Origin: Ignavibacteriota bacterium
Lineage (GTDB): Bacteria > Bacteroidota > Ignavibacteria > UBA10030
Direction of reading: 5' to 3'
Assembly: GCA_003170475.1 (NCBI GenBank)
Contig: PMZI01000055.1
Location: forward strand, 62,001-126,000
DNA: 64,000 nucleotides
Made by a program: the position numbers and the translations under genes. This document shows positions 13,751-36,404 of this stretch, in pieces (the first letter of the stretch is position 1; each line of letters starts with the position of its first letter). The notes beneath the pieces were generated by a model. That model ran no database searches, had not been told where the DNA came from, and saw only the letters and a list, made by a program, of their open reading frames with translations.

Positions 13751-13757
13751 AATATGC

Positions 13758-14708
13758 TCAATGTGAGGTCAGTTTGTCGAGTTTGGTTTTGGTGACCAGT
13801 TCTATCTTAACAGGAATATCTGATGGAACGTTCTCTCCGTGGAGAGCCTTCAGGGCTGTCTCAACCGCGAGCCTTCCCATTTCCTCGGGATGTTGAGCAA
13901 TGGATGCTTGCATGTCGCCATTCACGATTGCTGCTCGGCTGTCTTTGATTGCATCAAATCCCACGACGATAATGTCCCCTTTTTTGTCGACGGCGGCGAT
14001 CGCCTCGACAGCTCCCAGCGCCATCATGTCGTTACACGCGAAGATGGCTTTGACATGAGGGTGGGCTTGCAGAATATTACGAAAAACATTGAAACCCTGA
14101 TCTCTTTCCCAATTCGCAGTTTGGGATGCTACGATGGTGATACCTTTCTGTTCTGCGAGCGCCTCGTGAAAGCCCAGAAGTCGAGCATCGCCTGTTTCAT
14201 GACCTGGAATTCCCTCGAGGATTGCCACTTCTCCCGTCCCTCCCAGCTTCTCTGAGACGAACTCGCCGGCGATCCTTCCTCCGTCCTTGTTGTCTGATCC
14301 GATGAAGGAGAGGACAACGGCACCGGATTCAGTCTGCGCCTTTCGGTCTACCCGAGTATCGATGACAATGACGGGTATTCGTGCCTGATTGGCCTTCAGG
14401 ATGGCAGGAACAATTTCTTTGGATCCGCTCGGCGCCACACAGATGGCTGAGACTTTTCGCTGAATCAGGTTCTCAATGATCTGCATTTGCTTCTCGACAT
14501 CGACTTCGCGTTCTGGAGCCTGAACAATCAGATCCACCCCGAGCCTCGCAGCCGCCGCTTGCGCTCCTTCCTGCATGTCCATGAAGAAAGGATTGTTCAG
14601 GGTTTTCAGGACGAGGGCAATGATTGGTTTGTCGGCACGGTCGGACCGCCCGCATTGTTGAAGGCCAAGAAGAGCTGCAAAGACGACCACAAAAACGCGC
14701 GTTTTCAT
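13758..14708 (-). CDS. CUT2 ABC transporter sugar/polyol-binding lipoprotein
   Basis: A 316-residue periplasmic-binding protein of the RbsB type: ALVLKTLNNPFF near the start, VAPSGSKEIVPAI, VIDTRVD, GSDNKDGGRIAGEF, AIFACNDMMALGA and GFDAIKDS line the usual two-lobed ligand site. The N-terminus has a hydrophobic signal and a possible lipobox LQQC (Cys19). It overlaps the permease gene by four bases (ATGA). The family binds ribose, galactose, xylose or inositol. Inositol or a relative is suggested by the adjoining iol genes but cannot be read from the sequence. Confidence 0.88.
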   Translation of the reverse strand: MKTRVFVVVFAALLGLQQCGRSDRADKPIIALVLKTLNNPFFMDMQEGAQAAAARLGVDLIVQAPEREVDVEKQMQIIENLIQRKVSAICVAPSGSKEIVPAILKANQARIPVIVIDTRVDRKAQTESGAVVLSFIGSDNKDGGRIAGEFVSEKLGGTGEVAILEGIPGHETGDARLLGFHEALAEQKGITIVASQTANWERDQGFNVFRNILQAHPHVKAIFACNDMMALGAVEAIAAVDKKGDIIVVGFDAIKDSRAAIVNGDMQASIAQHPEEMGRLAVETALKALHGENVPSDIPVKIELVTKTKLDKLTSH

Positions 14709-15676
14709 TTGATGATTCCTTTCGCAAGCAAGATCGTTCTGTCTTTTCTCACTGCCATGTCGATGAGAACTGCCAGAATAATTACGGAACCGATCACTAC
14801 CTGCTGCGTAAAAGAGGAGACCCCGACAAGGTTGAGGCCGTTTCTGAGAATTCCCATGATTAGGACGCCAATCAGCGTTCCCGAGATTGTTCCTTCACCC
14901 CCCAGCAAACTCGTGCCACCAATCACGACGGCGGCGATGGCGTCGAGCTCGTACATCAGGCCTGCGATCGGTTGAGCCGAATTCAGGCGCGCCGTCAGGA
15001 GCACCGCTGCCAATCCGCTCAACATTCCACACAGCGCATAAATTGTTGTCTTGATCATCCGGGTATTAATACCGGACAGATTCGCTGCTTCTTCATTCCC
15101 CCCGATAGCATACGTATACCGCCCCAGTTTTGTCCAATGGAGAATACAATGTGCAAGGATGTAAAGAACGATCATGATGATGACGGGAGAGGGGATCCGC
15201 GCTATCTCCCCCGTCGCCAGCGATCTAAACTCGGCAGAGAACCCTGAAACGGGTCTCCCGTCGATGTAGAAGAGGGCAATGCCTCTGGCTACGCTCATCA
15301 TGCCCAGAGTGGCGATGAACGGGGGGAGGCGGCCGAAGCTGATGAGCAATCCGTTGCTGAGACCACACAGTGCGCCAACTCCGAGTCCAAGCAGAATGGC
15401 GACGGGCACGGGAAGGCTGGCTTGGAGTGCCCCTGCGAGTACGACACCAGAAAGAGCGACAATGGAACCGACTGAAAGGTCGATGCCTGCAGCGATGATG
15501 ACAAACGTCATACCGACGGCGATCACAGCATTGATCGAGGCCTGTTCGGCAATGTTCATCAGATTCGAGATCGTGAGGAAATAAGGGCTGAGGATCCAGA
15601 AGACTGCCGTCACGACGATCAATCCCACAAATGTTCCCAGTTGCCTGCTGTTTTGTATCAGGAGTTCTTTTTTCAT
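14705..15676 (-). CDS. CUT2 ABC transporter permease (RbsC-like)
   Basis: A 323-residue hydrophobic protein with about ten predicted membrane segments. It carries the conserved AAGIDLSVGSIVALSGV near the N-terminal third and ELDAIAAVVIGGTSLLGGEGTI in the C-terminal third, which are hallmark stretches of RbsC/XylH/IatP permeases. It stops one base before the ATPase coding region's end context and overlaps the binding-protein gene, so ATPase, permease and binding protein are one operon. It probably imports a sugar or cyclitol such as myo-inositol, by association with the iol genes. Confidence 0.9.
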   Translation of the reverse strand: MKKELLIQNSRQLGTFVGLIVVTAVFWILSPYFLTISNLMNIAEQASINAVIAVGMTFVIIAAGIDLSVGSIVALSGVVLAGALQASLPVPVAILLGLGVGALCGLSNGLLISFGRLPPFIATLGMMSVARGIALFYIDGRPVSGFSAEFRSLATGEIARIPSPVIIMIVLYILAHCILHWTKLGRYTYAIGGNEEAANLSGINTRMIKTTIYALCGMLSGLAAVLLTARLNSAQPIAGLMYELDAIAAVVIGGTSLLGGEGTISGTLIGVLIMGILRNGLNLVGVSSFTQQVVIGSVIILAVLIDMAVRKDRTILLAKGIIK

Positions 15677-17170
15677 TTAGGCTGCTCCCAGGGCGTATCG
15701 CATAACGCGTTCCTGTGTTGCTTCCTCAGACTTCAGTTCACAAACGATGGTGTGCTGATACATGATGAGAATTCTGTCGCTCATGCCCAGAACCTCGGGT
15801 AATTCAGAAGAGATCATGATGATCGCGACTCCTTCAGCCGTGAGTTGATTCATCAGCTGATAGATTTCCACCTTGCTCCCAACGTCTATGCCTCGTGTTG
15901 GTTCATCGAAGATAAAGATATCTGCCTTCCTGGAAAGCCATTTCGCGAGAACGACCTTTTGCTGATTTCCACCGCTCAGATTGAGTACCTTCTGATGGTT
16001 GCTGGGAGTCTTGATCCGCAATTGCTCAATGAACGACTTTGCTTCTCGTTCTTCTCGCTTGTTGGAAATGACTCCGAGCCTGGAAAAGAGATCAAGGCTC
16101 GACAGGGTGATGTTGTCCTTCACCGAAAGTGACAACACCAGCCCTTGCGATTTGCGGTCCTCCGTAAGAAATCCAAGGCCAAGTTTCACGGCAGTGCGTG
16201 GTGAATTGATCTTCCGGCACTTTCCCTTAATGACAATCTCACCAGAATCGATCCGGTCTGCTCCGAAAAGTGCGCGCGCCAATTCTGTTCTTCCGGAGCC
16301 AAGAAGGCCGGAAATTCCCAGGATCTCACCTCGATGCAGAGAAAAACTGATGTCCCGAAGCGCTCCTTTCCGGTTGAGTTTCTCCACACGCAGGATTTCT
16401 TCGCCACGATCGGTTCGATGTCGTGGATATTGTTCTTTCAACTCCCGGTTCACCATCATCTTCACGAGTTCGGCTTGAGAAGTTTCATAGACCATCCGGG
16501 TTCCCACGAGCTTACCGTCGCGCAGCACGGTCACTCTGTCGCCAATCTCGAAAATCTCCTGCAGTCTGTGAGAGATGTAGATGATCGCGACTCCCTTCTC
16601 CCTGAGTTTGCGAATAACGCCAAAAAGCTGCTTGATTTCCGTCTCGGAAAGAGCGGATGTCGGTTCATCCATGATGAGTATTCTAGCATCGAGGGAGAGA
16701 GCCTTTGCCACTTCGATCATTTGCCTTTGGGCGATACCAAAAGATCTTACTGGTTGATCGCAGTCAATCTGAAGGCCGATGGAAGAGAGGATGTGTTGAG
16801 CAGAAGAGAGCAGGGTGTGCTTCTCGATCAATCCGACGGAGTTCGTCCGCTCACGCCCGAGAAAGATGTTTTCTGCTGCTGTGAGCGACGGGACGAGGTT
16901 CAATTCCTGATAGATTATGCCGATGCCCAATTTCTGGGCTTGCTTGGGAGAGTCGATTTCGACCGGATTGTCGAAGAGAACAATTTCTCCGTCGGTTTTC
17001 TGAATAGCTCCGCTCAAGATCTTGACAAGGGTCGACTTCCCGGCCCCATTTTCCCCGAGCAGGACATGGACTTCGCCTGCCTTCAAGTCGAAGCTGACAT
17101 CATCCAGCGCCACAACACCGGGGAAAACTTTGCGAATGTGGCGCATATGGAGGGCCGTTATGTTCGGCAT
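15677..17170 (-). CDS. CUT2 ABC transporter ATPase (RbsA-like, two-domain)
   Basis: A 497-residue duplicated ATPase. The first domain has Walker A GENGAGKST, signature FGIAQRQMIEVAKAL and Walker B ILIMDEPTSAL. The second has the degenerate P-loop GLLGSGRTELARALFG usual for this family, then LSGGNQQKVVLAKWL and IFIFDEPTRGIDVG. I start at ATG 17170 (MPNITALHMRHI), only four bases after the preceding gene's stop; a longer frame to 17266 would overlap that gene by about 90 bases. It powers the CUT2 importer encoded by the next two genes. Confidence 0.92.
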   Translation of the reverse strand: MPNITALHMRHIRKVFPGVVALDDVSFDLKAGEVHVLLGENGAGKSTLVKILSGAIQKTDGEIVLFDNPVEIDSPKQAQKLGIGIIYQELNLVPSLTAAENIFLGRERTNSVGLIEKHTLLSSAQHILSSIGLQIDCDQPVRSFGIAQRQMIEVAKALSLDARILIMDEPTSALSETEIKQLFGVIRKLREKGVAIIYISHRLQEIFEIGDRVTVLRDGKLVGTRMVYETSQAELVKMMVNRELKEQYPRHRTDRGEEILRVEKLNRKGALRDISFSLHRGEILGISGLLGSGRTELARALFGADRIDSGEIVIKGKCRKINSPRTAVKLGLGFLTEDRKSQGLVLSLSVKDNITLSSLDLFSRLGVISNKREEREAKSFIEQLRIKTPSNHQKVLNLSGGNQQKVVLAKWLSRKADIFIFDEPTRGIDVGSKVEIYQLMNQLTAEGVAIIMISSELPEVLGMSDRILIMYQHTIVCELKSEEATQERVMRYALGAA

Positions 17171-17174
17171 GATC

Positions 17175-17915
17175 TTAGAATAGAAATTGAAATCCGAGCA
17201 CGGCCCACGTATCGGTGTCTTCGTCATGATGTTGTATGCTCTTGCCGAAAGAGGCGAGCAGTACAACGTGTTCTGACCACTCCCACGTGAATCCGATATT
17301 CATCATGGGCTCGCGCAGATCATACGGGGTCTCGCGGACAGCCGTGTGCCATTCTACGAGAATGTCGACTGGATCCAGTATCCAGGCAGCCGCCACTCCA
17401 CCTTCCCATCCTTCGGATTTGCCATTGACCCAGGTATGAGCGAGCTCGGCCGTCAAGCCGAAATGCTCCCATTCCTGGTGCCACTCCAACGGGAGGCTCA
17501 ATTCGACCTCTCTCTCATCCTCGAAAGAGAAGTGGACCTGAGGAAACAGAGCAAAGTTCGATCCCGTCGTTCCGGGATTATCGATGAATCGGTACTTTAC
17601 TCCCATCTCCAACCAATCGAAACTCCGCCGTGTCCCCGAGTCCTTCTCTTCGGATAATGCAAAGGGTGTTGTCAATGTGAGCTGCGTGCGATTTCCGACG
17701 CCATAATTTATGTCGAACTGTGGAATCTGATATTCGCGGTTGAGAGCGGAGCGTTCTAGAGAAGCGAAGATGTTAATCTCCCAATTCCCCGGACCGGGTG
17801 TTCCCGGGTCAGTCAATATGAGTGGGGGACCCCCTTGGGCGAACATGGAATGTGTGAACAACGTAAACAGGAAGAAAGCTGACAAGGAAACAAATGTGAG
17901 TCTAGCGCGCATCAT
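17175..17915 (-). CDS. Outer-membrane beta-barrel protein, first gene of the importer operon
   Basis: A 246-residue protein with a signal peptide ending near MFAQG. The mature chain is rich in alternating-polarity strands (TQLTLTTPFALSE, HFSFEDEREVELSLP) and ends FQFLF, the aromatic C-terminus expected for insertion by the Bam complex. GAGGA precedes the ATG at 17915. It is four bases upstream of the RbsA-like ATPase, so it probably supplies outer-membrane passage for the same substrate. It resembles a second barrel at 24571 in size and style (both have a PG(T/V)-rich start and GLxxGI-like strands), but close homology is not certain. The 250 bases upstream (17916-18171) hold no gene and may contain its promoter. 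Confidence 0.65.
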   Translation of the reverse strand: MMRARLTFVSLSAFFLFTLFTHSMFAQGGPPLILTDPGTPGPGNWEINIFASLERSALNREYQIPQFDINYGVGNRTQLTLTTPFALSEEKDSGTRRSFDWLEMGVKYRFIDNPGTTGSNFALFPQVHFSFEDEREVELSLPLEWHQEWEHFGLTAELAHTWVNGKSEGWEGGVAAAWILDPVDILVEWHTAVRETPYDLREPMMNIGFTWEWSEHVVLLASFGKSIQHHDEDTDTWAVLGFQFLF

Positions 17916-18171
17916 ACACAATCCTCATGCTTTTTCGTTCGTTGACCTTTTTGAATAAATGGATATGCCATTATCAGAACGCCATCAACGTATCTGGCTC
18001 AAGGTACGATACAAACATGAAATGCGTGTGAAAATGCGCGCTGGTTTGTCTGCTCAATGTCATTCAACAGAACAAATCTCCGTTGGCACGGATGCCCGAT
18101 CCTGTGCATGCTCATGTTAACGTCGCTCGTCTATCCATGCCGAAATCTGATGCTGAACAGGAAGTGACTAA

Positions 18172-18969
18172 TCAGAATCGCTGCAGATACTCAATGGTCT
18201 TCCTCGCGGCTACATCGGGGTCCGGAAGGGGAAGCATCTCTGCAGAAACGTACCCGGTATAGCCAATCTCTTCGAGGGTCTCAAACACAGAACGGAAATC
18301 AATGTGGCCCGCTCCGGGGTACCAGCGGTTGGAATCTGCTACATGAAAATGAAAAAGAAGATCCCCGACCAGCTTGATACTCTCGGTCATCGAGGGCTCT
18401 TCAATGTTCATATGAAACGTATCGAGAAGAAGTCCCACGTTTTTCTTATCAACCTTTTCCAGCAACTCGATTCCTGATCGCGCCGTGTTGACGAGATTGG
18501 TTTCGTACCGGTTGATAGGCTCGATCGCGAATCTTACACCTGGGTTTTCCGATGCGCAAGCCCGAAGTCCATGTACCAGCCATCGGTCCGCGGTTTCAGG
18601 GTCGAGGTCCGATTCCCTTTTTCCTCTTACCAGGCCGATGATAACGATTGCGTCAAAAAGTGCAGCAAATCGTGCCTGAGTTTTGATGCGTCCGATCGCC
18701 TTCTCTCGGAAGCCTTTGCTTGGATCGATAAAGGAGAGTCGTTCCTCCACATACGCCTGCCCGGTTCCGATGGCGGAAACGGGCAAGCGATGTTCCTTCA
18801 GAAGCGATGTGAGGGATGACACGTCAATGAGCGCTGGATCTCTGACTGCGAGCTCGATTCCATCAAACCCGAGCGTTTTGATTCTGGAAACGTTTTCGAT
18901 CAGCTTGCCCTGATAGGCGAGCGCCGAAAACGTTGTCGGTTGTGTCGAAAGCACGATACTGAACTTCAT
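18172..18969 (-). CDS. iolO: Sugar isomerase/epimerase, candidate 5-keto-L-gluconate epimerase IolO
   Basis: A 265-residue TIM-barrel protein of the xylose-isomerase-like family: GFDGIELAVRDP near the start, FAIEPINRYE with the catalytic glutamate, LLDTFHMNIEE, HFHVADSNRWYPGAGHID and YVSAEMLPLPDPD supply the expected metal ligands. In Thermotoga maritima the equivalent member beside iolG, iolM and iolN epimerises 5-keto-L-gluconate to D-tagaturonate (IolO). Here the same four enzyme families are contiguous, and this gene follows iolN by five bases. Family membership is clear; the IolO assignment comes from context. Related enzymes include tagatose epimerases and hydroxypyruvate isomerase. Confidence 0.72.
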   Translation of the reverse strand: MKFSIVLSTQPTTFSALAYQGKLIENVSRIKTLGFDGIELAVRDPALIDVSSLTSLLKEHRLPVSAIGTGQAYVEERLSFIDPSKGFREKAIGRIKTQARFAALFDAIVIIGLVRGKRESDLDPETADRWLVHGLRACASENPGVRFAIEPINRYETNLVNTARSGIELLEKVDKKNVGLLLDTFHMNIEEPSMTESIKLVGDLLFHFHVADSNRWYPGAGHIDFRSVFETLEEIGYTGYVSAEMLPLPDPDVAARKTIEYLQRF

Positions 18970-18974
18970 GTCTT

Positions 18975-20069
18975 CTAGAGTCCCATTTTACGAATGGCAT
19001 AGATGGGGCGCCATCCGGGTGTGAAGGGTTCCTTCATGTAGGGCACCATTTCTTCTTCCGTTCGCATCGTTGTTTTCTCAATGGGTGGCACCTTGCCCGA
19101 TGGAAATGCCTCGAACAGTTCGTCGTGAACCAGAGTCAGGTAGGAGAGAATGGCTGCGATCGTTCTCTTGGCCTTCTCAGCTTTTCCGATTGTTGGTCGA
19201 CCCACGACGCCTTCGGGGATCGATCCCATTTCTGTCGGGAAATGACCCTGACCCTCTGACCAGCGGGAGGGACGTCCGAAAGGATCGACGGCCTTGTCGA
19301 AGTGCCCATCGGGCAAATATGGTGTGACGGTCGTCTCCTGTGCGTACGACATCTCGACATACTCCTTTGCCAGAAGCAGGAGAACTGAAGTCTCCGCTTC
19401 GTCAGCGTGTACGAAGTCGTCATCCCAGTCGCCGCCGCGTGCCTTCGTGCGGAAGAACTCTCTCACAGCCCTATGCCAATCAATGGTCCTGAAAATGCCA
19501 GGAAGATTCCATGTTTTCTGGAGTTCTTGAATGGCAGCCTCCAGTAGCCAGGAATGTCCGTGATTGTTGATGAGGACAATCTTTCTGAACCCGTCGTTCC
19601 AGAATCCAACCATGACGTCAATCAACATCCTCTTGAGGACTTCGTCTTCCAGGTGAATGGTGCCCGGCATGCCGACGTGGTGATGCGGATGTCCGCCAAA
19701 GTTCAGCGGCGTCCAGGTCAGGTTTACCGGCGCGCCCTTCTTGGCGGTGTAGCGTCGGACACCTTCGAGAAGTTGGGTCACCATAAACGTGTCCAGTGCG
19801 GTGACGGTGTGAATTCCATGAAGCTCGGTGCAGCCGATAGGAATAAAAAGAATGTCGTTCTTCTTTCGATTCTCCACAACATGCTTGCGGATTGTCGTCT
19901 GTATATATGTCCCAGGTTTCGCCAGTTCCGACGGGGAAGGGATACCGTAATCCGCGAGAATCTGGTCGATTTCTTTATCAGTGGCGTCCCAGATCTTCTT
20001 CTTCAATCTGCCGACGCTGGTGTCCTCAAAGGAGATATCCCCCCGATTTGCTTTGATCCAATTTGCCAT
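18975..20069 (-). CDS. iolN: Creatininase-family hydrolase, candidate diketo-inositol hydrolase IolN
   Basis: A 364-residue protein. The metal-binding region is PIGCTELHGIH with Glu82 and His84, followed by Asp93 (ALDTF), and the later NNHGHS (168-172), matching creatininase-family metal sites. It is about 100 residues longer than plain creatininases, with N- and C-terminal additions. In the Thermotoga inositol route a creatininase-family enzyme, IolN, opens the ring of the doubly oxidised inositol to give 5-keto-L-gluconate. The position between candidate iolO and iolM makes the same role likely. The catalytic residues are visible; the substrate is inferred. Confidence 0.75.
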   Translation of the reverse strand: MANWIKANRGDISFEDTSVGRLKKKIWDATDKEIDQILADYGIPSPSELAKPGTYIQTTIRKHVVENRKKNDILFIPIGCTELHGIHTVTALDTFMVTQLLEGVRRYTAKKGAPVNLTWTPLNFGGHPHHHVGMPGTIHLEDEVLKRMLIDVMVGFWNDGFRKIVLINNHGHSWLLEAAIQELQKTWNLPGIFRTIDWHRAVREFFRTKARGGDWDDDFVHADEAETSVLLLLAKEYVEMSYAQETTVTPYLPDGHFDKAVDPFGRPSRWSEGQGHFPTEMGSIPEGVVGRPTIGKAEKAKRTIAAILSYLTLVHDELFEAFPSGKVPPIEKTTMRTEEEMVPYMKEPFTPGWRPIYAIRKMGL

Positions 20070-20090
20070 GATGCACTCCTCAATTAAGAA

Positions 20091-21278
20091 TTAGTCGAAT
20101 TTCGTGACAGTGATCTTCACATCGTCCCGGTCAGTCTGCAACTTCACCAGGCTGGGCTCAACCTCATCCAGCGATATCTTCTTCGTGATAATCGGGGAGA
20201 CGTCCATGCCCGAAGAGATGCAACTGATCACGTTCGGGAAGACGCCCTGGCCAGAATGTCCCTGTGATCCGACAACGTTCGCACGTCGGACCTGAAGGAC
20301 TTCGCCATTGAGCGGAATCCTGTCATCAGCGCGGGCCACGACGACCACCGTTGCATTAATCGCTCTTCCTTCCCAGATGATTCGCTCAACATCCGGCCAA
20401 ACGACGCTTGGCAATCCGGTCGCCTCAAGGATCAGTTTAGCTCCATGTCCGTGCGTGATGTCGAGAACCGCGTCCGCGACGTTGTCCGTTTTCGGGTCGA
20501 TGACGTGGGTGGCTCCAATGGACAATGCCATTTTCCTTCTTGCCGCCGATGGTTCAGAGAGAATGACGGCGTTGGCTCCAGCTCTGCGCAGGATGGCGCA
20601 CGCTGCTGCTCCGACCGGTCCGGCTCCAAGAATAACCACATTTTCACCAGGCTGAATTCCGCCACCCCGCGTGATGACAGCGGTGTAAGCAACCGACGTC
20701 GGTTCCACGAGGCTTCCAAGATACCACATTTTCTCCTCGCCGTACAATGTCCGGAAATCCTCAATGCTCCACAAGTAGCGGGCATCGACCACGATGTTTA
20801 TCGCATAAGCTCCGTCGATCGAGAAGCCGATTTCCTGAAGGCTCTCGCAGTGATTCGGGAAACCGTCTGCGCAGGGGCGGCAGTAGCTGCACCACATCAT
20901 TTCTTCGGAACAGACCCCTTCGCCGACTTCCAGTTTCCGGCCGGTTCGCTTATTGATTGCTTTGTCGCCTGCCATCACGACGGATCCGCAGAATTCATGT
21001 CCCAAAGTGCAAGGGAATGCGGTCAGCCCGGGATAGAAAATATAGCCGTCTTTGTCCTTCTGGTACATATGCACGTCGCTGCCGCAGATCCCGCAGGCCT
21101 TGACCTCGATGAGAACCTCAGTTGGTCCTGGTTCGCGAACTTCTTTGTTCACGATCTTGACTTTTGGATTCCGCCAGACGCGGCTGCCGAGATACGTCAG
21201 TTTCTTATCGATGTCCTTCTTCCCAAGAACAAACCCGGGTCTTGGATCCCAATCTGCGAAGAGTGATACGGTTCTCAT
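20091..21278 (-). CDS. iolM: Zinc-dependent dehydrogenase, candidate 2-keto-myo-inositol dehydrogenase IolM
   Basis: A 395-residue medium-chain dehydrogenase. The catalytic zinc site shows ACGICGSD (Cys65) and LGHEF (His94, Glu95); the structural zinc site is Cys130, 133, 136 and 144. The NAD-binding motif is GAGPVGAAACA. It has an N-terminal extension of about 40 residues before the GroES-like fold. In Thermotoga a zinc dehydrogenase, IolM, carries out the second oxidation of the inositol ring. This gene sits between candidate iolG and iolN with short gaps, supporting the same step. Another polyol dehydrogenase role cannot be excluded by motifs alone. Confidence 0.75.
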   Translation of the reverse strand: MRTVSLFADWDPRPGFVLGKKDIDKKLTYLGSRVWRNPKVKIVNKEVREPGPTEVLIEVKACGICGSDVHMYQKDKDGYIFYPGLTAFPCTLGHEFCGSVVMAGDKAINKRTGRKLEVGEGVCSEEMMWCSYCRPCADGFPNHCESLQEIGFSIDGAYAINIVVDARYLWSIEDFRTLYGEEKMWYLGSLVEPTSVAYTAVITRGGGIQPGENVVILGAGPVGAAACAILRRAGANAVILSEPSAARRKMALSIGATHVIDPKTDNVADAVLDITHGHGAKLILEATGLPSVVWPDVERIIWEGRAINATVVVVARADDRIPLNGEVLQVRRANVVGSQGHSGQGVFPNVISCISSGMDVSPIITKKISLDEVEPSLVKLQTDRDDVKITVTKFD

Positions 21279-21317
21279 AACAACTCCTATCGAATAATGG
21301 TGTGTTCAGTGTTTGAT

Positions 21318-22331
21318 TCAAAAATCTTTGACGTTCACAATTCTGGATTCCTTCAATGAGGCTGTCGCTGCAACGGCGACTTGAAGCCCGGCAATTCCAT
21401 CTTCAATCGTGATCATCGGCTTCAGGTCGTTCTGGAGATTGTTGAGGAAGTCATTCAATTGAGCAACATAGGCGTCACAGAACCGTTCGGGGAAATAGGG
21501 GACGACGTCATGTGTAACCCCTTGGGCGGTCATCACGAGGATGGGAGTTTCTCGCAAGTATCCGATTTTGAGAGTCCCCTTCGTTCCCAGCACTTCAGCG
21601 CGAATATCGTAGCCGTAAATGCCGTTCCTGCTGATGTCGATTTCACCAAGACATCCGCTGTCAAATTTCATGGACATGATGACATTGTCCGTGTCTCCGG
21701 TGTCTTTGACCTCAGGATACGCCAGCACTCCACCGATGGAATAAACCGACGCAATTTCTCCCATATACCATCGGGCGATGTCGATATCGTGAATAGCCAT
21801 GTCGAGAATTTGTCCGCCGCTGTTGTGCGGATAGAGGTATTCGAGAGTGGGGAGGTAGGGATCCCTGGAAGAACCGCGGAATACGACCGGGGCTCCAATG
21901 ACACCATCCATGATCTTCTTTTTCGCAGCGGCAAGTCCTTTATCAAATCTTCGCATATACCCTTGCTGGTAGAACACGCCGTGCTTCTCGATAGCATCCT
22001 TCATCTCCCGCGCATCCTTCAGGCTGAGCGTCATTGGCTTTTCGCAAAACACCGGTTTTCCTTTGGAGGCCGCATCCAGCACGATCTCCTTGTGATTTGC
22101 TGTGGTTGCAGTAACGATCACCGCCGCAAGATTCTTGTCGGAGTTGATCTCCTGGTGACTAAAGTATGCCTTCTCGATACCAAACCGCTCTGAGCACTTT
22201 GTTGCCCGTTCGGGAACGATGTCGGCAACCGCGATCAGGTTTGCACCGGCAACGCGCGTGGTAAGGAATTCGGCATACATGGTTCCCAGGCGACCTGCGC
22301 CAATGAGGCCTACATTGATTTTCTTTCTCAC
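21318..22331 (-). CDS. iolG: Inositol 2-dehydrogenase IolG (Gfo/Idh/MocA family)
   Basis: A 337-residue oxidoreductase. The Rossmann motif is GLIGAGRLGTMYA, the catalytic CEKPMTL follows near residue 97, QGYMRRFDKGL is characteristic of inositol dehydrogenases, and GGQILDMAIHDIDIARW contains the catalytic Asp/His. It oxidises myo-inositol to 2-keto-myo-inositol with NAD, the first step of inositol catabolism. The rest of the presumed pathway (iolM, iolN, iolO) lies directly downstream on the same strand. Specificity for scyllo- or D-chiro-inositol is possible. The 79 bases upstream have no distinct signal. Confidence 0.83.
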   Translation of the reverse strand: MRKKINVGLIGAGRLGTMYAEFLTTRVAGANLIAVADIVPERATKCSERFGIEKAYFSHQEINSDKNLAAVIVTATTANHKEIVLDAASKGKPVFCEKPMTLSLKDAREMKDAIEKHGVFYQQGYMRRFDKGLAAAKKKIMDGVIGAPVVFRGSSRDPYLPTLEYLYPHNSGGQILDMAIHDIDIARWYMGEIASVYSIGGVLAYPEVKDTGDTDNVIMSMKFDSGCLGEIDISRNGIYGYDIRAEVLGTKGTLKIGYLRETPILVMTAQGVTHDVVPYFPERFCDAYVAQLNDFLNNLQNDLKPMITIEDGIAGLQVAVAATASLKESRIVNVKDF

Positions 22332-22410
22332 GTTTGTTCCTTTTTGTCGTGTTCTGTGAAGTTAACAAGTGATGAAACTGAAGATATCCGGCCGCTTGCC
22401 GCGGCAACGG

Positions 22411-23601
22411 TCAGTACAGCGTCACGCGGTCCCGCAGAGCATAATTGCCCAAAAAGTCCTTGTCTCTGTATATCTCAACCGTTCCTGATTGAGGTCCCAT
22501 GCTCACCTTCAGGAACGTGCTCTTTCTCCATTCCGTGTTCGCCCAGAAGAGTTTCGAGTACTTGTTGATGCCATCCGGTGAGCTGTGACTCTCTGCATAG
22601 AGCTGACCAAGAATCGTGATGGCCTGACCGTCGCTAAGATCTTTGTATGTCTTCACTTTCAGGATGCCGAGATTGAATACTAACTTTTTGATCTCTTTGT
22701 CATTTGACTTGTAGAAATGAGAAATCGAACTGTCAATACTCATCCCCTTCTTGAGATCAGCGCCGACGTACTTCGTAAGGACCGAGAACAGCTTCTCCGG
22801 ATTGTAACGGTCTTCCTGACCGTAGATGTGGCCCGAACTGAACAACCAGAGGCCGTTGATGTTTGCATAGAAGGCAGTATGCGTGTGGCCACTGAAATAG
22901 GCAGTGACGTGATACTGCGCCAACAAGCGATGAAACTTCTGAGCATTGTCCGGGTATTTGTCGAGAGCATCATTCAAATGTCTCACAGTGCCGTTATCCA
23001 TGTCCAGAAGAGGATAGATCGGTTCATGTCCGAAAACCAAAACCCGCTTTTTGGTGTTCTGTTTCAGATCGTTCTCGAGCCAACTCAAGAGCTCAGGCAC
23101 AATGTTACCGTCTGTTTTGTTGTCGGTCTTGCCGTCGTAATAAACGTTGAGAATGATAAAGTGCACATCATTCCAATCAAAACTGTAGGTCGTTTCTTCG
23201 CATCCGGATGGCCCTTTTCGGAGGACGTAGGGGAGACCATGTTCCCCGCGGTTCATCTCCCTCAAATATTCGGTGTTTGCTTCGACTTCCAGGTCGTGGT
23301 TGCCGATGACGGGGTACCAGAGATAGTCCTTTCCCAGCACCGACGCGATGAGGTCGCGTGTCGCCGACGGGGGATCGAGGTCCCCGAGGACAATCATGAA
23401 CGAGCCTTTGCCGACGGCGTTGATGGCTTCGTAGCCTCCGAGCGTATAGACGTGAGTTCTAAATTCCTGCGTCGCATGTTCGCGTTGATCGCTGGAAACA
23501 ATAAAAGAGAACGGGTCGCTGGACTTCTGCGCCTGCAGAAGGGGAGCAGCCACGGAAAGTAATAGGAGAGAAACGAGTGTGCGCACGATCTTTCTTTTCA
23601 T
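22411..23601 (-). CDS. Exported calcineurin-like metallophosphoesterase
   Basis: A 396-residue protein with a clear signal peptide (residues 1-25, ending LLQAQ). Metallophosphoesterase motifs are present: GDLDP, GNHDLE, FGHEPIY and SGHTHTAFY. The first metal motif, normally DxH, reads SDQRE, so the usual histidine is replaced by Arg, with a His two residues later; the metal site may be unusual. It lies between candidate iolG and the PfkB kinase, unlike the known Thermotoga cluster. A periplasmic phosphatase here would fit release of inositol from an inositol phosphate, but the substrate is not known. Confidence 0.78.
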   Translation of the reverse strand: MKRKIVRTLVSLLLLSVAAPLLQAQKSSDPFSFIVSSDQREHATQEFRTHVYTLGGYEAINAVGKGSFMIVLGDLDPPSATRDLIASVLGKDYLWYPVIGNHDLEVEANTEYLREMNRGEHGLPYVLRKGPSGCEETTYSFDWNDVHFIILNVYYDGKTDNKTDGNIVPELLSWLENDLKQNTKKRVLVFGHEPIYPLLDMDNGTVRHLNDALDKYPDNAQKFHRLLAQYHVTAYFSGHTHTAFYANINGLWLFSSGHIYGQEDRYNPEKLFSVLTKYVGADLKKGMSIDSSISHFYKSNDKEIKKLVFNLGILKVKTYKDLSDGQAITILGQLYAESHSSPDGINKYSKLFWANTEWRKSTFLKVSMGPQSGTVEIYRDKDFLGNYALRDRVTLY

Positions 23602-23620
23602 GGAGTACTCCGATAGTTAT

Positions 23621-24523
23621 CTATGCAAGCCCAATAGATTCGTACTCTCGCGCGATAAAATCGCGTACATCACTCACGCTGCGCAGGAACGGTCCTTCGG
23701 CTTCCATTTTCAAACTTGTTGTCGCTGCAGACCAGATGATGGCTACCTGCGGTGGCTCTGTCAGTCTTTTCGCAATGTAGGAAGCGATGCAGGTGTCTCC
23801 TCTACCACTCCTGCCGATTAGACTCTTGTTCCGCCAAGGAGCCTCGTAGAAAATTCCGGCTGCTAACACGAGAATGCCATCTTTATGCGTTAGAACCACT
23901 TCCTTTGGTCCCATCTTCGCAAGAGCCATGGCGGCTTTCTTGATGTCCGATTCACCCGTGAGTGATTCTGCCTCGACGGCGTCGGTTTTGAGGACGTCCA
24001 CCAATCGAAGATGTTCTTCCTTCTCGGGCCACGGAGCGTGGAGAAGCGTATGATCTGGAGCGATGATTCGTATGAAGCCTTGCAGGTCGGCAACGAGCAG
24101 GGCGTCTTTTTTTCGGAGCGTGCGAACCACCTCCAAAGGGATTTCGCCCCGAATTGAGCCATTCATCAAAAAAGCCTTTGCCTCGAGAGCTTCGAACTGA
24201 TCCGGAGTGAACGAACCGGCTGTCATCGCGCAACGAAGGATTCTATCGTCGGGATTTGCCGAACGATATTCCAACACCATATGCGTCGACGAAGGTGTGT
24301 AGAACGGATACACGTCGACGCCAATGCTCTGGAGTTTGTCCACCACCCGCTGATCTTCCCGGGCAAGGCGAGTCACTGCTGCTACGTTCAGTCCCAGCAT
24401 CCGGGCCGCGTGGGCGCCATAATTGAAGCCTCCGCCGTCAACATACCGCGTCCCGGAGGGAGTGATGATTGTGTCTTTAGTATAGTTGCCGAAGATTACG
24501 ATGTCGTACTGACGCGAGTGCAT
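23621..24523 (-). CDS. iolK: PfkB-family kinase, candidate inositol kinase IolK
   Basis: A 300-residue ribokinase-fold protein. The N-terminal GGGFNYGAHAARMLG and the C-terminal anion-hole/catalytic motif GRSGRGDTC (catalytic Asp243) identify the family; GRGD replaces the more common GAGD. I start at ATG 24523 (MHSRQYDIVIFG), preceded by AAAGG, because the frame upstream to 24652 would run into the neighbouring gene and adds no conserved sequence. Thermotoga has a PfkB kinase (TM0415) in the equivalent cluster. It might phosphorylate inositol or a downstream keto-acid. The substrate is inferred only from context. Confidence 0.68.
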   Translation of the reverse strand: MHSRQYDIVIFGNYTKDTIITPSGTRYVDGGGFNYGAHAARMLGLNVAAVTRLAREDQRVVDKLQSIGVDVYPFYTPSSTHMVLEYRSANPDDRILRCAMTAGSFTPDQFEALEAKAFLMNGSIRGEIPLEVVRTLRKKDALLVADLQGFIRIIAPDHTLLHAPWPEKEEHLRLVDVLKTDAVEAESLTGESDIKKAAMALAKMGPKEVVLTHKDGILVLAAGIFYEAPWRNKSLIGRSGRGDTCIASYIAKRLTEPPQVAIIWSAATTSLKMEAEGPFLRSVSDVRDFIAREYESIGLA

Positions 24524-24570
24524 CACCGATATACCTTTCCAAGCTATTTCAAGAACTTGTTTCTGCTCAC

Positions 24571-25332
24571 TTAGAACTCGAATGTGACATTCATTACGAT
24601 ACGATACCTGTCTGACGAAGACGTCAGCCCGATCGGCATTCCAATTCCGCACTCGAGTCCGTCGCCGAGGCTGTAATAGACACCTGGCGAGAAATAGAAC
24701 GAGCTTGGCCCGTCGAATATCTTTCCCCCCGCTTCGAACACCGGCGTCCAGTGGCCCGCAGGCATCAACACCGAGGCACAGTATTCGAACTCAGCTTCGC
24801 TTCCCCCGAACTCTTCAGCAAGACTCAGATGAAGCTGGTTCTGACCAAACGTCTTCGCCAGAACGATTGAAGGTTCGAATCTCAATGACTTGTCTGTACC
24901 CGACCCAATGGGAGCACTGATCTCGGCAGAGACCTTCATCGCGAACGGCTCATCCTTTTGCATGAGAAGATAGGACACCTCAGCCCCCATCTTGCTGAAA
25001 TCGGGATCCGGAATATTGTCCGACAATGCATTCTGCAGATGGGAAACCTCCACTCCAAGCTCCAGACGATTTGTAATGCCGTATTCAAATTCTAGATTCA
25101 ACCCCCAGCCTTTTGCGTCGCTCTGGCTAAGAAACCGGGGGGAGAGAGTGCACTGGAGCTCTTCCTGTTCCTCCGTATACACAGTGTGGCCGAGAAAAAG
25201 CTCCTGGATCGGTTCACGTAGTCGCACCAGTTGTGCATGTGCCGTGCCTGACGCCGCCAGAACCACCAAAGCAGTCCACACAAGTACGAACAACACGGTT
25301 TGCGGCCTCACTCGCGTGATTCGCTGATGCAT
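24571..25332 (-). CDS. Outer-membrane beta-barrel protein within the iol cluster
   Basis: A 253-residue protein with a signal peptide ending near TAHAQ and many amphipathic strands (GWGLNLEFEYGITNRLELGVEV, shown in part; RYRIVMNVTFEF at the end). The C-terminal phenylalanine fits an outer-membrane barrel. It begins one base before the stop codon region of the upstream permease gene ends, so it is tightly coupled to that gene. With the barrel at 17175 it makes two simple barrels beside two inner-membrane importers. A passive porin for inositol or inositol phosphate is a reasonable guess and nothing more. Confidence 0.62.
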   Translation of the reverse strand: MHQRITRVRPQTVLFVLVWTALVVLAASGTAHAQLVRLREPIQELFLGHTVYTEEQEELQCTLSPRFLSQSDAKGWGLNLEFEYGITNRLELGVEVSHLQNALSDNIPDPDFSKMGAEVSYLLMQKDEPFAMKVSAEISAPIGSGTDKSLRFEPSIVLAKTFGQNQLHLSLAEEFGGSEAEFEYCASVLMPAGHWTPVFEAGGKIFDGPSSFYFSPGVYYSLGDGLECGIGMPIGLTSSSDRYRIVMNVTFEF

Positions 25333-26685
25333 CTAATCACTCACTTTTGCTTTCCAGAGCGAGGTTGCCAGAATGAGGGAGAGGACCGAAGCCCCCACCC
25401 AGAACATGATAGCCGCACTGAAATCATAGTGCCTGACACCGTTGACGACGGTCGTTCCTTTGTCGATGAAGTAGCCACTGATGAGATCCTGTGTAGCTGC
25501 TCCAAGATAGCTGAAGACTCCGATGACGCCCATCGCTGCTCCTGCCGCTTTTTTCGGAGCAATATCTGTGGCGAAGAGTCCTCCGAGTGAAACGAGCAAT
25601 CCGCTGATCGAGAAGCCGTACAACACGAATGCGAATGACAAGAGAGTGACGCTCGCCAAGGGCGTGAGAAAAATGATGCTCAAGGCAACAAGTTCCAACA
25701 GGCCACAGATCAGGGTAACGGGAGGGCGCCTGGCGTGAAAGAATTTGTCGGAGATATAGCCGTAGCTGAGGCTTCCGACGAGACCGGCGATGGTATTGAG
25801 CCCGAGGAGGCTGCCTGCCTCTACTAATGAGTAGCCTTTGGTCTCCTGCAAAAAGAGAATGCCCCAATTAACGACCGCGTACCGAGTCACGTACATCATG
25901 CTGCTCGCCAGCGCAAGAATCCAAATGGAGGGCAACTTCAAAATGGATTTCTGCAGGGACCAGACGCTTGGCGCTTTCTGGCCCGTATCAACGACGGGGG
26001 CTCCATGGTCGTTCCTCCAATCCGCAACAAGCGGCAATCCGAGTGTTCGTGGACGATCCTGAAGAAGGAGATACATCACGAATGCAATCAGAACACAGGT
26101 GAGTCCCGGGCCCTTGAAGCCGGCACGCCAACCGAAGAGAGTGACCAGGCCTGCGATGACGACATACGTCAACCCCTCGCCAATCGGGTGCCCCATGCTG
26201 AAGAACCCATATCGTCTTCCTCGCTCATTGTTGCTGAACCAATGTGCCATAGACACCATCGCGGATGGTGCGCCAATACCCTGAAACCATCCGTTGAGAC
26301 CCCAGAGTACCACCCAGACCCACAGCAGCGGAGACCAACCCATTGCGATGTTGATCATCGCTGACATCAGGACGCCGAAAGAGAAGAATCTTTTGAGATT
26401 GGCGTGGTCTGCAAGAAATCCATTGGTCAATTTGCCAAAGGCGTACGAATAGAAGATTGCCGAACTGATCAACCCCAGTTCCTGCGCATTGAAGATCCCG
26501 CCATCGATCAGCGGTTTCTTTACCACGGAGAGCGCAAGACGGCAAGTATATGCTATTCCATAGCCGAATGTGATAGCCGCCATGATCTGCCATCGATGCC
26601 TTTTATAAAGAGCATTCACGCGCGTCTGATCTTCCATCAGAGGTGCGTCTGGGCCGGTAGCAAAGAACTTCAATACCCGATTCAT
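25333..26685 (-). CDS. Organophosphate:phosphate antiporter-family MFS permease (GlpT/UhpT-like)
   Basis: A 450-residue protein with twelve predicted helices. The start YKRHRWQI.AAITFGYGIAYTCR resembles GlpT, and Arg49 aligns with the GlpT phosphate-binding Arg45. The second half has YVTRYAVVNWG, where Arg268 aligns with GlpT Arg269. These two arginines bind the phosphate of the substrate in GlpT and UhpT. Their presence argues for an organophosphate exchanger rather than a free-sugar porter. The iol cluster makes inositol monophosphate the leading candidate substrate. It lies 47 bases after the second dehydrogenase gene. Hexose phosphate or glycerol phosphate remain possible. Confidence 0.82.
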   Translation of the reverse strand: MNRVLKFFATGPDAPLMEDQTRVNALYKRHRWQIMAAITFGYGIAYTCRLALSVVKKPLIDGGIFNAQELGLISSAIFYSYAFGKLTNGFLADHANLKRFFSFGVLMSAMINIAMGWSPLLWVWVVLWGLNGWFQGIGAPSAMVSMAHWFSNNERGRRYGFFSMGHPIGEGLTYVVIAGLVTLFGWRAGFKGPGLTCVLIAFVMYLLLQDRPRTLGLPLVADWRNDHGAPVVDTGQKAPSVWSLQKSILKLPSIWILALASSMMYVTRYAVVNWGILFLQETKGYSLVEAGSLLGLNTIAGLVGSLSYGYISDKFFHARRPPVTLICGLLELVALSIIFLTPLASVTLLSFAFVLYGFSISGLLVSLGGLFATDIAPKKAAGAAMGVIGVFSYLGAATQDLISGYFIDKGTTVVNGVRHYDFSAAIMFWVGASVLSLILATSLWKAKVSD

Positions 26686-26693
26686 AGGGTCCC

Positions 26694-26711
26694 CTTGTTA
26701 TAAAGAACAAG
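26694..26711 (-). repeat. Inverted repeat before the antiporter gene
   Basis: CTTGTT and AACAAG are perfect 6-bp arms around a 6-base spacer, ending eight bases before the ATG of the permease. On the mRNA the hairpin would lie against the AAGGGGA ribosome-binding region and could modulate translation. It could also be a processing site or chance. Confidence 0.35.
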
Positions 26712-26732
26712 AAGTGCGGGTGAGCGACGTTG

Positions 26733-27776
26733 TTATGGCTTAATAACGATCTTCATTGCCTTCTTTGGAATATGGTTCATCGTATTCAGATCCAAGCCAA
26801 GCTTGGAGAATGCGCTTACGCCATCCTCGAGGCGGATCACCTCGGTGAAAAAGGGAGCCATGTTAAGCTTATGAGATTGCAGAATCTTTATCGCGGGCAA
26901 GCATGTGTTCTGACCGATGTACGAACCGAGGATTTTGATAGCGTTGCGGGTGATGGTATTAGGCGTGATTGTTGCTTTGACGCTGCTATCCATCCCGAAG
27001 GCAAGAATTTTGCCGCCTGGAGTCACGTACTTCAGAGCGTTCTCCAGTTGCGTCCCAACTGCGTCAATGACGATGTCAGCCTTCTTGCCGTTCGTGAAGG
27101 TCAAAACTTCTTTTTCGATGTCAGTCTCGTTTGGATTGAAGACTGGGATACCGAGTTGTTGCGCGACAGTGATTCTGAACGGATCGACCTCTGTGCACAT
27201 CACCCGCGCGGCCACATTGTCAGCGAGAGCGGAGAAGAGGTAGCCGATAGGTCCGAAGCCAAGCACGACCACGGAATCCCACGGTTGCATCTGAACGATG
27301 TTCATCCCATTGAGTACGGTGCCTAGAGTCTCAACCTGAGTTGCTGTAATATCATCGATCGAGTCGGGAACTTTGTAGCATGCGTTTTCCGGGAGGACGC
27401 AATACTCTGCATAGCCGCCATCCTGAAAAATGCCGATAGATTTATCTTTCAACCAATCGCACTGACTGCTCATGCCTGTACGGCAGAATTCGCAAACGCC
27501 GCATCGCAGACTGTTATCGACAGCGACACGGTCTCCGACTTTCATCGTAGTGATCGCGCTTCCAACTTCCTGAACCGTGCCGACGAATTCATGCCCCAGG
27601 ACAGCGTTTACAGAAACGGCGTGTTTCCCTTCAAGGATCTTCACGTCAGTTCCACAGATGCCGCAGGCGATAACTTTCACGAGCACCTGATTGGGGGCAG
27701 TGATCCTGGGTATCGATCTGTCTTCCAAGGCAATCTTGCCGAGGGCTTTATACACAAGAGCTTTCATAGTGGTCAT
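26733..27776 (-). CDS. Second zinc-dependent alcohol/polyol dehydrogenase
   Basis: A 347-residue medium-chain dehydrogenase: ACGICGTD and LGHEF for catalytic zinc, CGVCEFCRTGMSSQC for structural zinc, and GFGPIGYLFSALA as the nucleotide-binding loop. It is shorter than the candidate iolM at 20091 and clearly a different subfamily. It is the first gene of the operon transcribed leftward from the regulated promoter at 27.85 kb, preceded by a good GGAGG. It may oxidise an inositol isomer or inositol phosphate, or reduce a uronate such as tagaturonate; nothing in the sequence decides. The first position in the regulon marks it as important. Confidence 0.8.
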   Translation of the reverse strand: MTTMKALVYKALGKIALEDRSIPRITAPNQVLVKVIACGICGTDVKILEGKHAVSVNAVLGHEFVGTVQEVGSAITTMKVGDRVAVDNSLRCGVCEFCRTGMSSQCDWLKDKSIGIFQDGGYAEYCVLPENACYKVPDSIDDITATQVETLGTVLNGMNIVQMQPWDSVVVLGFGPIGYLFSALADNVAARVMCTEVDPFRITVAQQLGIPVFNPNETDIEKEVLTFTNGKKADIVIDAVGTQLENALKYVTPGGKILAFGMDSSVKATITPNTITRNAIKILGSYIGQNTCLPAIKILQSHKLNMAPFFTEVIRLEDGVSAFSKLGLDLNTMNHIPKKAMKIVIKP

Positions 27777-27962: not shown

Positions 27963-28002
27963 TTGACAATTGATTTTATCATATGTATGATTGTCTAGAC
28001 AA
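27963..28002 (+). promoter_or_regulatory. Rightward regulated promoter with operator TTGTCTAGACAA
   Basis: TTGACA (27963-27968), a 17-base spacer and TATGAT (27986-27991) are a near-consensus sigma70 promoter. The palindrome TTGTCTAGACAA (27991-28002) starts at the last base of the -10, the same geometry as in the divergent leftward promoter. It drives the GntR/LacI-type regulator, so autoregulation is likely. It also shows that the ATG at 27983 lies inside the -10 and is not the start codon. Confidence 0.78.
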
Positions 28003-28021
28003 AGTAGGGACCTCACGACAA

Positions 28022-29101
28022 ATGATTGTTGACAAAAACAGCCCCGTTCCCCAGTACTTCCAGCTACAGACCTGGCTGGCAGAGCAGATCCAGGAAGGAA
28101 TTTTCAAGCCTCAGGATAGAATCCCCACAGAGGAGGAGCTCACGCAACTCACGGGTCTAGCCCGCGCGACCGTCCGTCAGGCGCTTCAAAACCTCGTCGG
28201 ACTCGGATACCTGAGCCGCAAAAAGGGCCTCGGGACGTTTGTTACAATTCCTCAAGTAAGCTCTCAGAAGCAGACGATTGTCGGAATCATCGTTCCGGAC
28301 ATTCGTTCCGGCTACGCGCCGGAGCTTGCCCGCGGAGTTGAGGACAAAGCAGCGAAGAGCAAACACAGTCTGATGGTGTGCAGCTCGGATGACCTTTTCA
28401 TCAAAGCAGAGTTTCACGCAAATAGACTCATTGAGAATGCTGTCAGCGGCGTGATCTACATTCCAACGGCGTCACCCGATGCGAAGAACAAGATGATCGT
28501 TCAGAAGTTCAAAGAACGTAACATTCCCGTCGTGCTGGCAGATCGTTCCATTCCCAATCTGGAGATCGATCACGTCACCACAGACAATCTCGACGGCGCG
28601 TACAAACTGACGACCTATCTCATCGACAAGGGACACAGCAAGATTGCGTTTGTCTTCAGCAATATTGTCACGACGGAACGTCTGCGATTCGAAGGCTACA
28701 AGAAGGCTCTGGCGGACCACGGAATTCAGTTCGATCCTTCAATCGTTGTGAGTCATCCCGGCCCCTTTAGCGACGAACAGTTTGCGAAGTACGCGCAGAC
28801 GGTTCTGAAACAGCGGAAGAAAATTACTGCGATCTTCGCGGCGCATGATCGAATCGCCTACACATTCTACTCCGTTGCGAAGGCGATGGGAGTTTCATTT
28901 CCTGAAGATCTGTCGATCGTTGGCTACGATGACCTCCGTGCCTACAATGTTCCGTTGACGACGATGCATCAACCTATCTATGAGATGGGTGAAGAAAGTA
29001 TGAAGTTGATCAGCTCGAGAATTCGTGGATCAAAAGAAGGCCCGAAATCGGTCGTGCTTGCTTCGTATCTGATCGAAAGGGAATCAGTCGCTCAAATATA
29101 A
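28022..29101 (+). CDS. GntR/LacI-type transcriptional regulator of the iol locus
   Basis: A 359-residue protein. Residues about 1-75 are a GntR winged helix (SPVPQYFQLQTWLAEQI, RIPTEEELTQLTGLARATVRQ, KKGLGTFV). The remainder is a LacI-type periplasmic-binding-protein fold (VGIIVPDIRSGYAPELARGVE, VVLADRSIPNLEIDHV, AIFAAHDRIAYTFY, SIVGYDDLRAYNVPLTTMHQP). This mixed architecture is that of AraR. It probably binds TTGTCTAGACAA and releases it when a sugar-like ligand, perhaps inositol or a catabolite, fills the pocket. I start at ATG 28022, after the operator. It is divergent from the iol operon. The 245 bases after it hold no gene. Confidence 0.85.
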   Translation: MIVDKNSPVPQYFQLQTWLAEQIQEGIFKPQDRIPTEEELTQLTGLARATVRQALQNLVGLGYLSRKKGLGTFVTIPQVSSQKQTIVGIIVPDIRSGYAPELARGVEDKAAKSKHSLMVCSSDDLFIKAEFHANRLIENAVSGVIYIPTASPDAKNKMIVQKFKERNIPVVLADRSIPNLEIDHVTTDNLDGAYKLTTYLIDKGHSKIAFVFSNIVTTERLRFEGYKKALADHGIQFDPSIVVSHPGPFSDEQFAKYAQTVLKQRKKITAIFAAHDRIAYTFYSVAKAMGVSFPEDLSIVGYDDLRAYNVPLTTMHQPIYEMGEESMKLISSRIRGSKEGPKSVVLASYLIERESVAQI

Positions 29102-29254: not shown

Positions 29255-29346
29255 GCAACGCATCGTTCGGTTTGTGAAACTCTAAACAAAATGGACAATA
29301 CACAATCAACGCACCAACTCATCATTCCTAAAGGGAGGAGATGAAA

Positions 29347-36386: not shown

Positions 36387-36404
36387 CACAAAGTTCACAT
36401 TGCA

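Follow-up and report, generated by a model that had tools for sequence, protein, structure and literature searches.

Can a bacterium whose genome has neither IolE nor IolD use inositol, and by which enzymes? The question is raised by an operon in a 64,000-nucleotide stretch of an Ignavibacteriota genome (class Ignavibacteria; assembly GCA_003170475.1, contig PMZI01000055.1, positions 62,001 to 126,000), referred to as the window. Such genomes are easily scored as unable to use inositol, since the IolBCDEJ pathway is usually assumed. An original prediction, made from the letters of the window, placed genes of IolO, IolN, IolM, IolG and a PfkB-type kinase at positions 18172-24523 and related them to the inositol pathway of Thermotoga maritima (TM0412-TM0416). 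All five genes are found there, on the minus strand. The set and its ends are incomplete: a metallophosphoesterase gene (MPE1) between those of IolG and the kinase was missed, and the operon covers 10883-27776. The whole is interpreted as a myo-inositol catabolic operon of the T. maritima IolG-IolM-IolN-IolO type, with a downstream route and a supply by neighbouring phosphatases; judged from sequence, the probability of this reading is about 0.85. The pathway type is already known and NCBI models of it exist. Its spread, its clusters linked to the pentose phosphate pathway and a puzzle concerning the kinase are of specialist interest.

Core enzymes

The families agree with those of TM0412-TM0416. 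IolO, IolN and IolM pass the NCBIfam equivalog cut-offs and IolG falls just short of that of TIGR04380 (Table 1). The closest solved structures are those of T. maritima proteins: 3ip1 for IolM (E 4.5e-169), which we take to be TM0412; 3ezy for IolG (2.7e-71), presumably TM0414, the inositol dehydrogenases 4mkx and 3cea being also matched; and 2zvr (TM_0416) for IolO (2.3e-75). IolN matches PF02633 and has no close relative among solved structures. AlphaFold2 models it (pLDDT 86) with a creatininase fold (Z 23; rmsd 2.2-2.5 for ~240 residues), well ahead of the next fold at 6.8. E82, H84, D93 and H170 are invariant in 42 IolN sequences and line up, in a profile alignment, with positions of the creatininase metal site, where we assume the corresponding residues to be metal ligands. 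The position two residues after H170, presumably a metal-ligand Glu in creatininases, is variable among IolN sequences. The window protein passes the IolN equivalog cut-off, and IolN sequences group tightly. In the IolM tree, the window protein lies in the same larger clade as TM0412 (100/97), separate from threonine dehydrogenase and from MDR2, the second zinc-type alcohol dehydrogenase of the operon. The outcome named beforehand as speaking against the prediction, a grouping of IolN and IolM with unrelated creatininases and alcohol dehydrogenases, is thus not what is observed. MDR2 was considered as a second IolM and rejected, its score being far below the IolM cut-off (Table 1).

On family membership, the steps in this organism would be as follows. 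A CUT2 ABC transporter would import inositol. IolG would oxidise myo-inositol to scyllo-inosose (2-keto-myo-inositol), which IolM would oxidise to a diketone. IolN would hydrolyse a ring C-C bond of the diketone, giving 5-keto-L-gluconate, and IolO would epimerise the latter to D-tagaturonate. To our knowledge, this route has so far been demonstrated in vitro in T. maritima only. The demonstration of the four steps in that species is that of Rodionova et al. (2013, Environ Microbiol 15:2254), as related in PMC3750489, PMC12632266 and PMC5931981. The T. maritima pathway and the operon share IolM, IolN, IolO, a predicted IolG, the PfkB kinase, the predicted order of reactions and the lack of IolE and IolD. 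They differ in the transporter (InoEFGK in T. maritima, a CUT2 importer here; PMC3750489), in the regulator (the ROK protein IolR in T. maritima, a GntR-LacI protein here; PMC3750489), in the acceptor pocket of the kinase and in the additional genes of the operon (a GlcD-GlcF fusion, GlcDF; MDR2; a major facilitator superfamily, MFS, transporter; phosphoesterases). Transporter and regulator do not define the pathway.

The classical Bacillus IolBCDEJ pathway shares the first step, by IolG; its IolE and IolD are not found. In a search of the whole genome (96% complete), no protein exceeds the IolE cut-off of 290 (the top score, 21 bits, falls within the UxuA gene), and the only IolD match is acetolactate-synthase-like (219 bits, cut-off 715). 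The predicted absence of the classical route thus holds for IolE and IolD; the genome-wide search covered these two and not IolB, IolC or IolJ. Two kinases of contig C14 score at most 134 with the IolC model (cut-off 300).

Extent of the operon

The run consists of 14 co-directional genes. Gaps between them are of at most 79 bases, with the sole exception of 250 bases before an outer-membrane protein gene (17175-17921).

Table 1. Features of the window. The first 14 rows are the genes of the run, in order of transcription; the divergent genes follow. Scores are in bits, with the cut-off in brackets.
Feature	Position	Strand	Evidence
MDR2, second zinc-type alcohol dehydrogenase, conserved accessory of iolMNO clusters	26733..27776	-	ADH_N/ADH_zinc_N; IolM model 179 (450)
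MFS transporter, GlpT/UhpT/UhpC organophosphate:phosphate antiporter group	25333..26685	-	UhpC and GlpT models, below equivalog cut-offs; phosphate-site residues kept
Predicted outer-membrane beta-barrel-like protein	24571..25332	-	Open reading frame (ORF); no Pfam match; barrel from the look of the sequence only
TM0415-like PfkB kinase, predicted pyrophosphate-dependent	23621..24523	-	TM0415 structures; signature residues; alternative upstream GTG start at 24652 possible
MPE1, secreted calcineurin-type metallophosphoesterase	22411..23601	-	PF00149 35.5; remote purple acid phosphatase match; secretion read from N-terminus only
IolG, predicted myo-inositol 2-dehydrogenase	21318..22331	-	TIGR04380 327.9 (355); 3ezy
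IolM, predicted scyllo-inosose 3-dehydrogenase	20091..21278	-	NF041097 476.1 (450); 3ip1; tree with TM0412
IolN, predicted 3-dehydro-scyllo-inosose hydrolase, creatininase superfamily	18975..20069	-	NF041098 296.4 (245); PF02633
IolO, predicted 5-keto-L-gluconate epimerase	18172..18969	-	NF041099 348.8 (300); 2zvr
Predicted outer-membrane protein	17175..17921	-	No Pfam match; one 51-54% homolog within iol cluster of L047
ATPase with two ABC domains, part of a CUT2-type sugar ABC transporter predicted to import inositol	15677..17173	-	PF00005 twice
CUT2-type permease	14705..15676	-	ORF; syntenic copies 62-76% identical in relatives
CUT2 periplasmic sugar-binding protein	13758..14708	-	PF13407 230; 5dte 4e-66, ribose-binding proteins
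GlcD-GlcF fused FAD/Fe-S dehydrogenase, final gene of run	10883..13750	-	PF02913, PF01565, PF02754
GntR-LacI-type regulator, divergent, predicted operon repressor	27983..29101	+	PF00392, PF13377
TonB-dependent receptor, possibly linked	29341..32202	+	PF07715, PF13715
PTP-like (cysteine) phytase, predicted secreted	32455..33486	+	PF14566 91.6; motif HCRAGKGRT; 3f41 3.4e-101
MPE2, purple-acid-phosphatase-like phosphoesterase	34776..35717	+	PF00149 65.5; 7ov8 3e-40

Probable fate of the tagaturonate

D-Tagaturonate would be converted to fructuronate by an unlinked UxaE-like protein (184 bits, C14:453310), and fructuronate to D-mannonate by an oxidoreductase of the short-chain dehydrogenase/reductase (SDR) type (368 bits, cut-off 281, C14:427488). 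A UxuB/UxaB of the mannitol-dehydrogenase type was considered for the latter step and rejected: none is found in the window's genome, and the SDR-type enzyme would take the role. D-Mannonate would then enter one of two branches. In the first, a hexonate epimerase, a kinase and 6-phosphogluconate dehydrogenase would take it by way of D-gluconate into the pentose phosphate pathway; in the second, UxuA, a kinase and an aldolase would take it through 2-keto-3-deoxygluconate (KDG) and its 6-phosphate, KDPG. Both are possible because the genome holds genes of both. UxuA and KDPG aldolase are encoded, and ~424-439 kb of C14 carry a uronate isomerase, two KDG-kinase-like kinases, a nickel-pincer hexonate epimerase of group 18 (667, cut-off 500) and Gnd, the 6-phosphogluconate dehydrogenase (781, cut-off 427).

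In T. maritima, tagaturonate is converted to gluconate by UxaE, mannonate oxidoreductase and GntE (PMC7583248). A UxaE-like protein, an SDR oxidoreductase, a LarA-type hexonate epimerase and Gnd are all encoded in the window's genome; here, the genes are unlinked to iol and the epimerase belongs to nickel-pincer nucleotide (NPN) group 18. The related GntE2 of T. maritima is a proven D-mannonate/D-gluconate epimerase (PMC7583248); for group 18 the activity is putative.

In other phyla these genes are physically linked to iolN, which is independent evidence for tagaturonate as the product. Eight loci (L037, L054, L057, L061, L063, L068, L083, L108) have genes of a LarA-type epimerase and Gnd clustered with iolN, mostly with an SDR mannonate oxidoreductase; IolM and IolO stand alongside in most, sugar kinases in several, and UxaE in five (L037, L054, L057, L068, L108). 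For the LarA proteins of L054 and L068, which do not reach the group-18 cut-off, the reaction is presumed. Each of the eight clusters would bring together nearly all of a route from inositol to the pentose phosphate pathway. Those in which iolMNO stands with UxaE, the mannonate oxidoreductase, the LarA-type epimerase and Gnd name a complete candidate route, and raise the puzzle of which acceptor the pyrophosphate-type kinase uses.

Occurrence and transfer

The survey covered 84,980 species genomes. An IolN relative is encoded in 143 stretches; the phylum tally is from the best 80 of these. A spread beyond Thermotogae, as had been suggested, is found: the 80 stretches belong to more than a dozen phyla, named as in the record titles (mostly metagenome bins), namely Bacteroidota/Ignavibacteria, Chlorobiota, Calditrichota, Marinimicrobia, KSB1, Chloroflexota, Armatimonadota, Myxococcota, Desulfobacterota, Actinomycetota, Bacillota, Synergistota, Spirochaetota, Bipolaricaulota and Aerophobetes. 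Clustering of the ORFs finds IolN in 73 loci, IolM in 60, IolO in 46 and IolG in 38. In the window's phylum, IolN exceeds the cut-off in 5 of the 395 sampled genomes, all of the window's class. Since IolMNO occurs in >12 phyla, many of them uncultured (Anaerolineae, KSB1, Marinimicrobia, Calditrichota, Bacillota), current estimates of inositol and phytate use in sediments and digesters are probably too low. Acetomicrobium hydrogeniformans (L110) is a cultured carrier.

In the IolM tree, the window protein belongs to a clade of Bacteroidota, KSB1, Marinimicrobia and Calditrichota (first clade). A second clade (41-47% identity to the window) unites Chloroflexota, Armatimonadota and Myxococcota with G228, a genome from the same family as that of the window. 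The IolN tree, drawn without TM0413, keeps the first clade together (SH-aLRT 100), with G228 outside. G228 (L003 / L164) carries another iolMNO version (IolM 43%, IolN 63% identical), nearer to the Chloroflexota/Armatimonadota forms. Between phyla of the first clade, IolN (78-88%) and IolM (73-85%) are more alike than RpoB (54-68%); L079, whose RpoB identities are unreliable (alignment pieces), is left out of this comparison. IolO identity is hardly different between phyla (~53-67%) and within the class (59-68%). Monophyly of the window's class is rejected for IolN (p-AU 4.5e-5).

Horizontal transfer, one of the two possibilities raised at the outset, is therefore indicated, as the simplest reading of the two trees and of the RpoB comparison; a strong constraint acting on these two proteins, IolN and IolM, may contribute to their cross-phylum likeness. 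Plain vertical descent in the class is rejected by the other version in G228 and by the monophyly test. A Thermotoga donor finds no support, since TM0412 branches on its own inside the IolM clade. The pathway is not Thermotoga-specific, and the operon is best described as the Bacteroidota/FCB (Fibrobacteres-Chlorobi-Bacteroidetes) version of a pathway spread widely and in part horizontally.

Kinase

The structures matched by the kinase (7e4l, 1.8e-44; 1vk4, 1.5e-43; 5ysp) are all of TM0415 (about 1e-43). In ribokinase-family kinases, five residues form a pyrophosphate (PPi) signature: K171, F221, R229, R232 and M266 (PMC5931981). Four of the five are identical in the window kinase; F221 is replaced by Trp, another large hydrophobic residue, as in L067 and L057. 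The PPi-dependent TM0415 and homolog No. 49 of Levilinea (PMC5931981) share the RxGRGD motif, K171 and M266 with the window kinase and differ from it in having F221. Acceptor positions 76, 78, 89 and 116 are M, L, L and S; homolog 49 has the same N78L, S89L and L116S. When this homolog was tested with KDG it was active with myo-inositol alone, and the judgement given was that its true acceptor is some other compound (PMC5931981). KDG as acceptor, by analogy with LguH, is not favoured: homolog 49, with the same pocket, is active with myo-inositol only. TM0415-like pockets (I, N, C, then L or I) are found in iolMNO clusters L036, L037, L091, L108 and L109. The window kinase is predicted to be pyrophosphate-dependent, with an altered acceptor pocket.

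A PPi-type phosphofructokinase (L108:14198-15478; NF010675, 388 bits over 273) is encoded in an iolMNO cluster, together with a kinase that resembles the PPi-signature type. The protein of L057:19884-21077 begins like this phosphofructokinase.

Accessory genes

The operon is largely syntenic in other families of the window's class. The order in G393, whose IolN is 90% identical to that of the window, is regulator, IolG, IolM, IolN, IolO, MPE2, ATPase, permease, binding protein, GlcDF, MDR2, MFS transporter, PfkB kinase; that in G124 is the same minus MPE2, the examined stretch ending in the MFS gene. Because of this synteny, the importer, GlcDF, MDR2 and the MFS transporter are counted as parts of the system for three genera of the class or more; for the kinase the number is two or more. 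Kinase, antiporter, MDR2 and GlcDF would be accessories.

Copies of the CUT2 ATPase (58-71% identical) lie downstream of iolO in relatives, and copies of the regulator (48-74%) upstream of iolG or iolM. MDR2 copies are 66-80% identical in relatives and 56-60% in Anaerolineae clusters. MPE1 copies lie beside iolG in L033 and L034 and next to the kinase gene in L042. TonB genes adjoin the iol clusters of some relatives. The GlcD-GlcF fusion directly follows the binding-protein gene and is syntenic in L034, L035, L161 and L163; a quinone- or electron-transfer-flavoprotein-linked oxidation of a cyclitol is possible. Genes of GlcD/GlcF-type FAD/Fe-S dehydrogenases adjoin iolMN in Anaerolineae (L061, L063, L068, L080, L082, L083, L089); in the window's class they are fused.

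The MFS protein scores below equivalog level with UhpC (266 of 564 bits) and GlpT (239.5 of 632.55). Aligned to the E. coli proteins, it keeps R45, K80, H165 and R269 (GlpT numbering). R45 and R269, which we take to be phosphate-site residues, are kept in this protein and in six iol-linked relatives. It would represent a subfamily related to the GlpT/UhpT antiporters.

Phytase and phosphate genes

On the plus strand, the TonB receptor gene is followed by those of a protein-tyrosine-phosphatase (PTP)-like phytase, a beta-propeller protein and MPE2, then by phosphate genes (36923-46840): PhoBR-like regulators, a Pit-like phosphate permease and PstSCAB-PhoU-like genes, as read by eye from the translations only. 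The phytase has a PF14566 domain with the HCxxGxGRT active site (Table 1) and matches the PTP-like (cysteine) phytases 3f41 and 1u24. It shares their family and HC(x5)R motif; it is single-domain, and its proximity to inositol catabolism is seen in the window only. A conserved link between phytase and iol genes is rejected, the PTP motif being found in no related locus examined; the association is a local observation. Phosphatase and inositol use are tied together by the MPE2 copy (67% identical) inside the G393 operon, between iolO and the transporter. The phytase and the phosphatases would probably supply inositol from inositol phosphates, and this is the weakest step of the explanation. A supply from phytate is plausible, and 32455-46840 is possibly a phytate-to-phosphate-and-inositol region.

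Alternative explanations

Several points weigh against a myo-inositol operon of the T. maritima type. As IolG scores slightly under its cut-off, its substrate could be another inositol isomer. The UxaE-like protein of the genome is divergent (28% identical to cluster-borne UxaE), and the downstream hexuronate and hexonate genes are unlinked to iol, on other contigs. No relative examined has a phytase near its iol genes. Since T. maritima shows no growth on inositol (PMC3750489), an inositol derivative may be the physiological substrate.

It is conceivable, at somewhat under one chance in three, that the operon takes up inositol in phosphorylated form (inositol monophosphate or glycerophosphoinositol) instead of free inositol: a GlpT/UhpT-type antiporter would import it against phosphate, and phosphoesterases or the kinase would interconvert the phosphorylated forms. 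The T. maritima study of 2013 is said to have found a transporter that prefers myo-inositol phosphate, which counts for this explanation, as do the phosphate-site residues of the MFS protein, the synteny of kinase, phosphoesterases and MFS transporter with iolGMNO in relatives, and the phytase and Pst/Pho genes that adjoin the operon. The operon also has a CUT2 sugar importer, however, and UhpC-type proteins can be sensors. Rather unlikely is an operon for another cyclitol or a substituted inositol (scyllo-inositol, D-chiro-inositol, pinitol), which MDR2 and GlcDF would convert to scyllo-inosose. MDR2 is found beside iolMNO in both FCB and Anaerolineae clusters, GlcD/GlcF recur in both lineages and IolG is below its equivalog cut-off; but IolG is closest to TM0414 and to inositol 2-dehydrogenases, and the downstream enzymes would be unchanged.

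The use of L-glucose/L-gluconate or L-galactonate via 5-keto-L-gluconate, with IolM and IolN acting elsewhere, is very improbable. LguG, a relative of IolO, works in such a pathway in Luteolibacter LG18 (PMC12632266), but its identity to the IolO of T. maritima is only 35%, and the window IolO passes the IolO equivalog cut-off and adjoins full-length IolM and IolN, which the LG18 pathway does not use. A wider scheme built on the T. maritima-type reading is doubtful. In this so far unrecognised inositol-phosphate economy, phytase and phosphatases would release inositol or inositol phosphates, the GlpT-type antiporter and the PPi kinase, with its non-inositol pocket, would handle a phosphorylated IolMNO intermediate, and a nickel-dependent mannonate/gluconate epimerase would lead the carbon to the pentose phosphate pathway. 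In some other phyla, a single cluster holds the majority of these carbon steps.

Other observations

Promoter and terminator scans of the window were at chance level overall, and tmRNA was the sole match of the Rfam search. In the window's genome, rpoB is found only in pieces that lie in different frames on two contigs (G000:C23:9655-11396 and G000:C33:18834-20009), which suggests assembly breaks or indel errors. YncE-like beta-propeller proteins, with weak family matches, are encoded at 6728-7786 and 33491-34612, the second adjoining the phytase.

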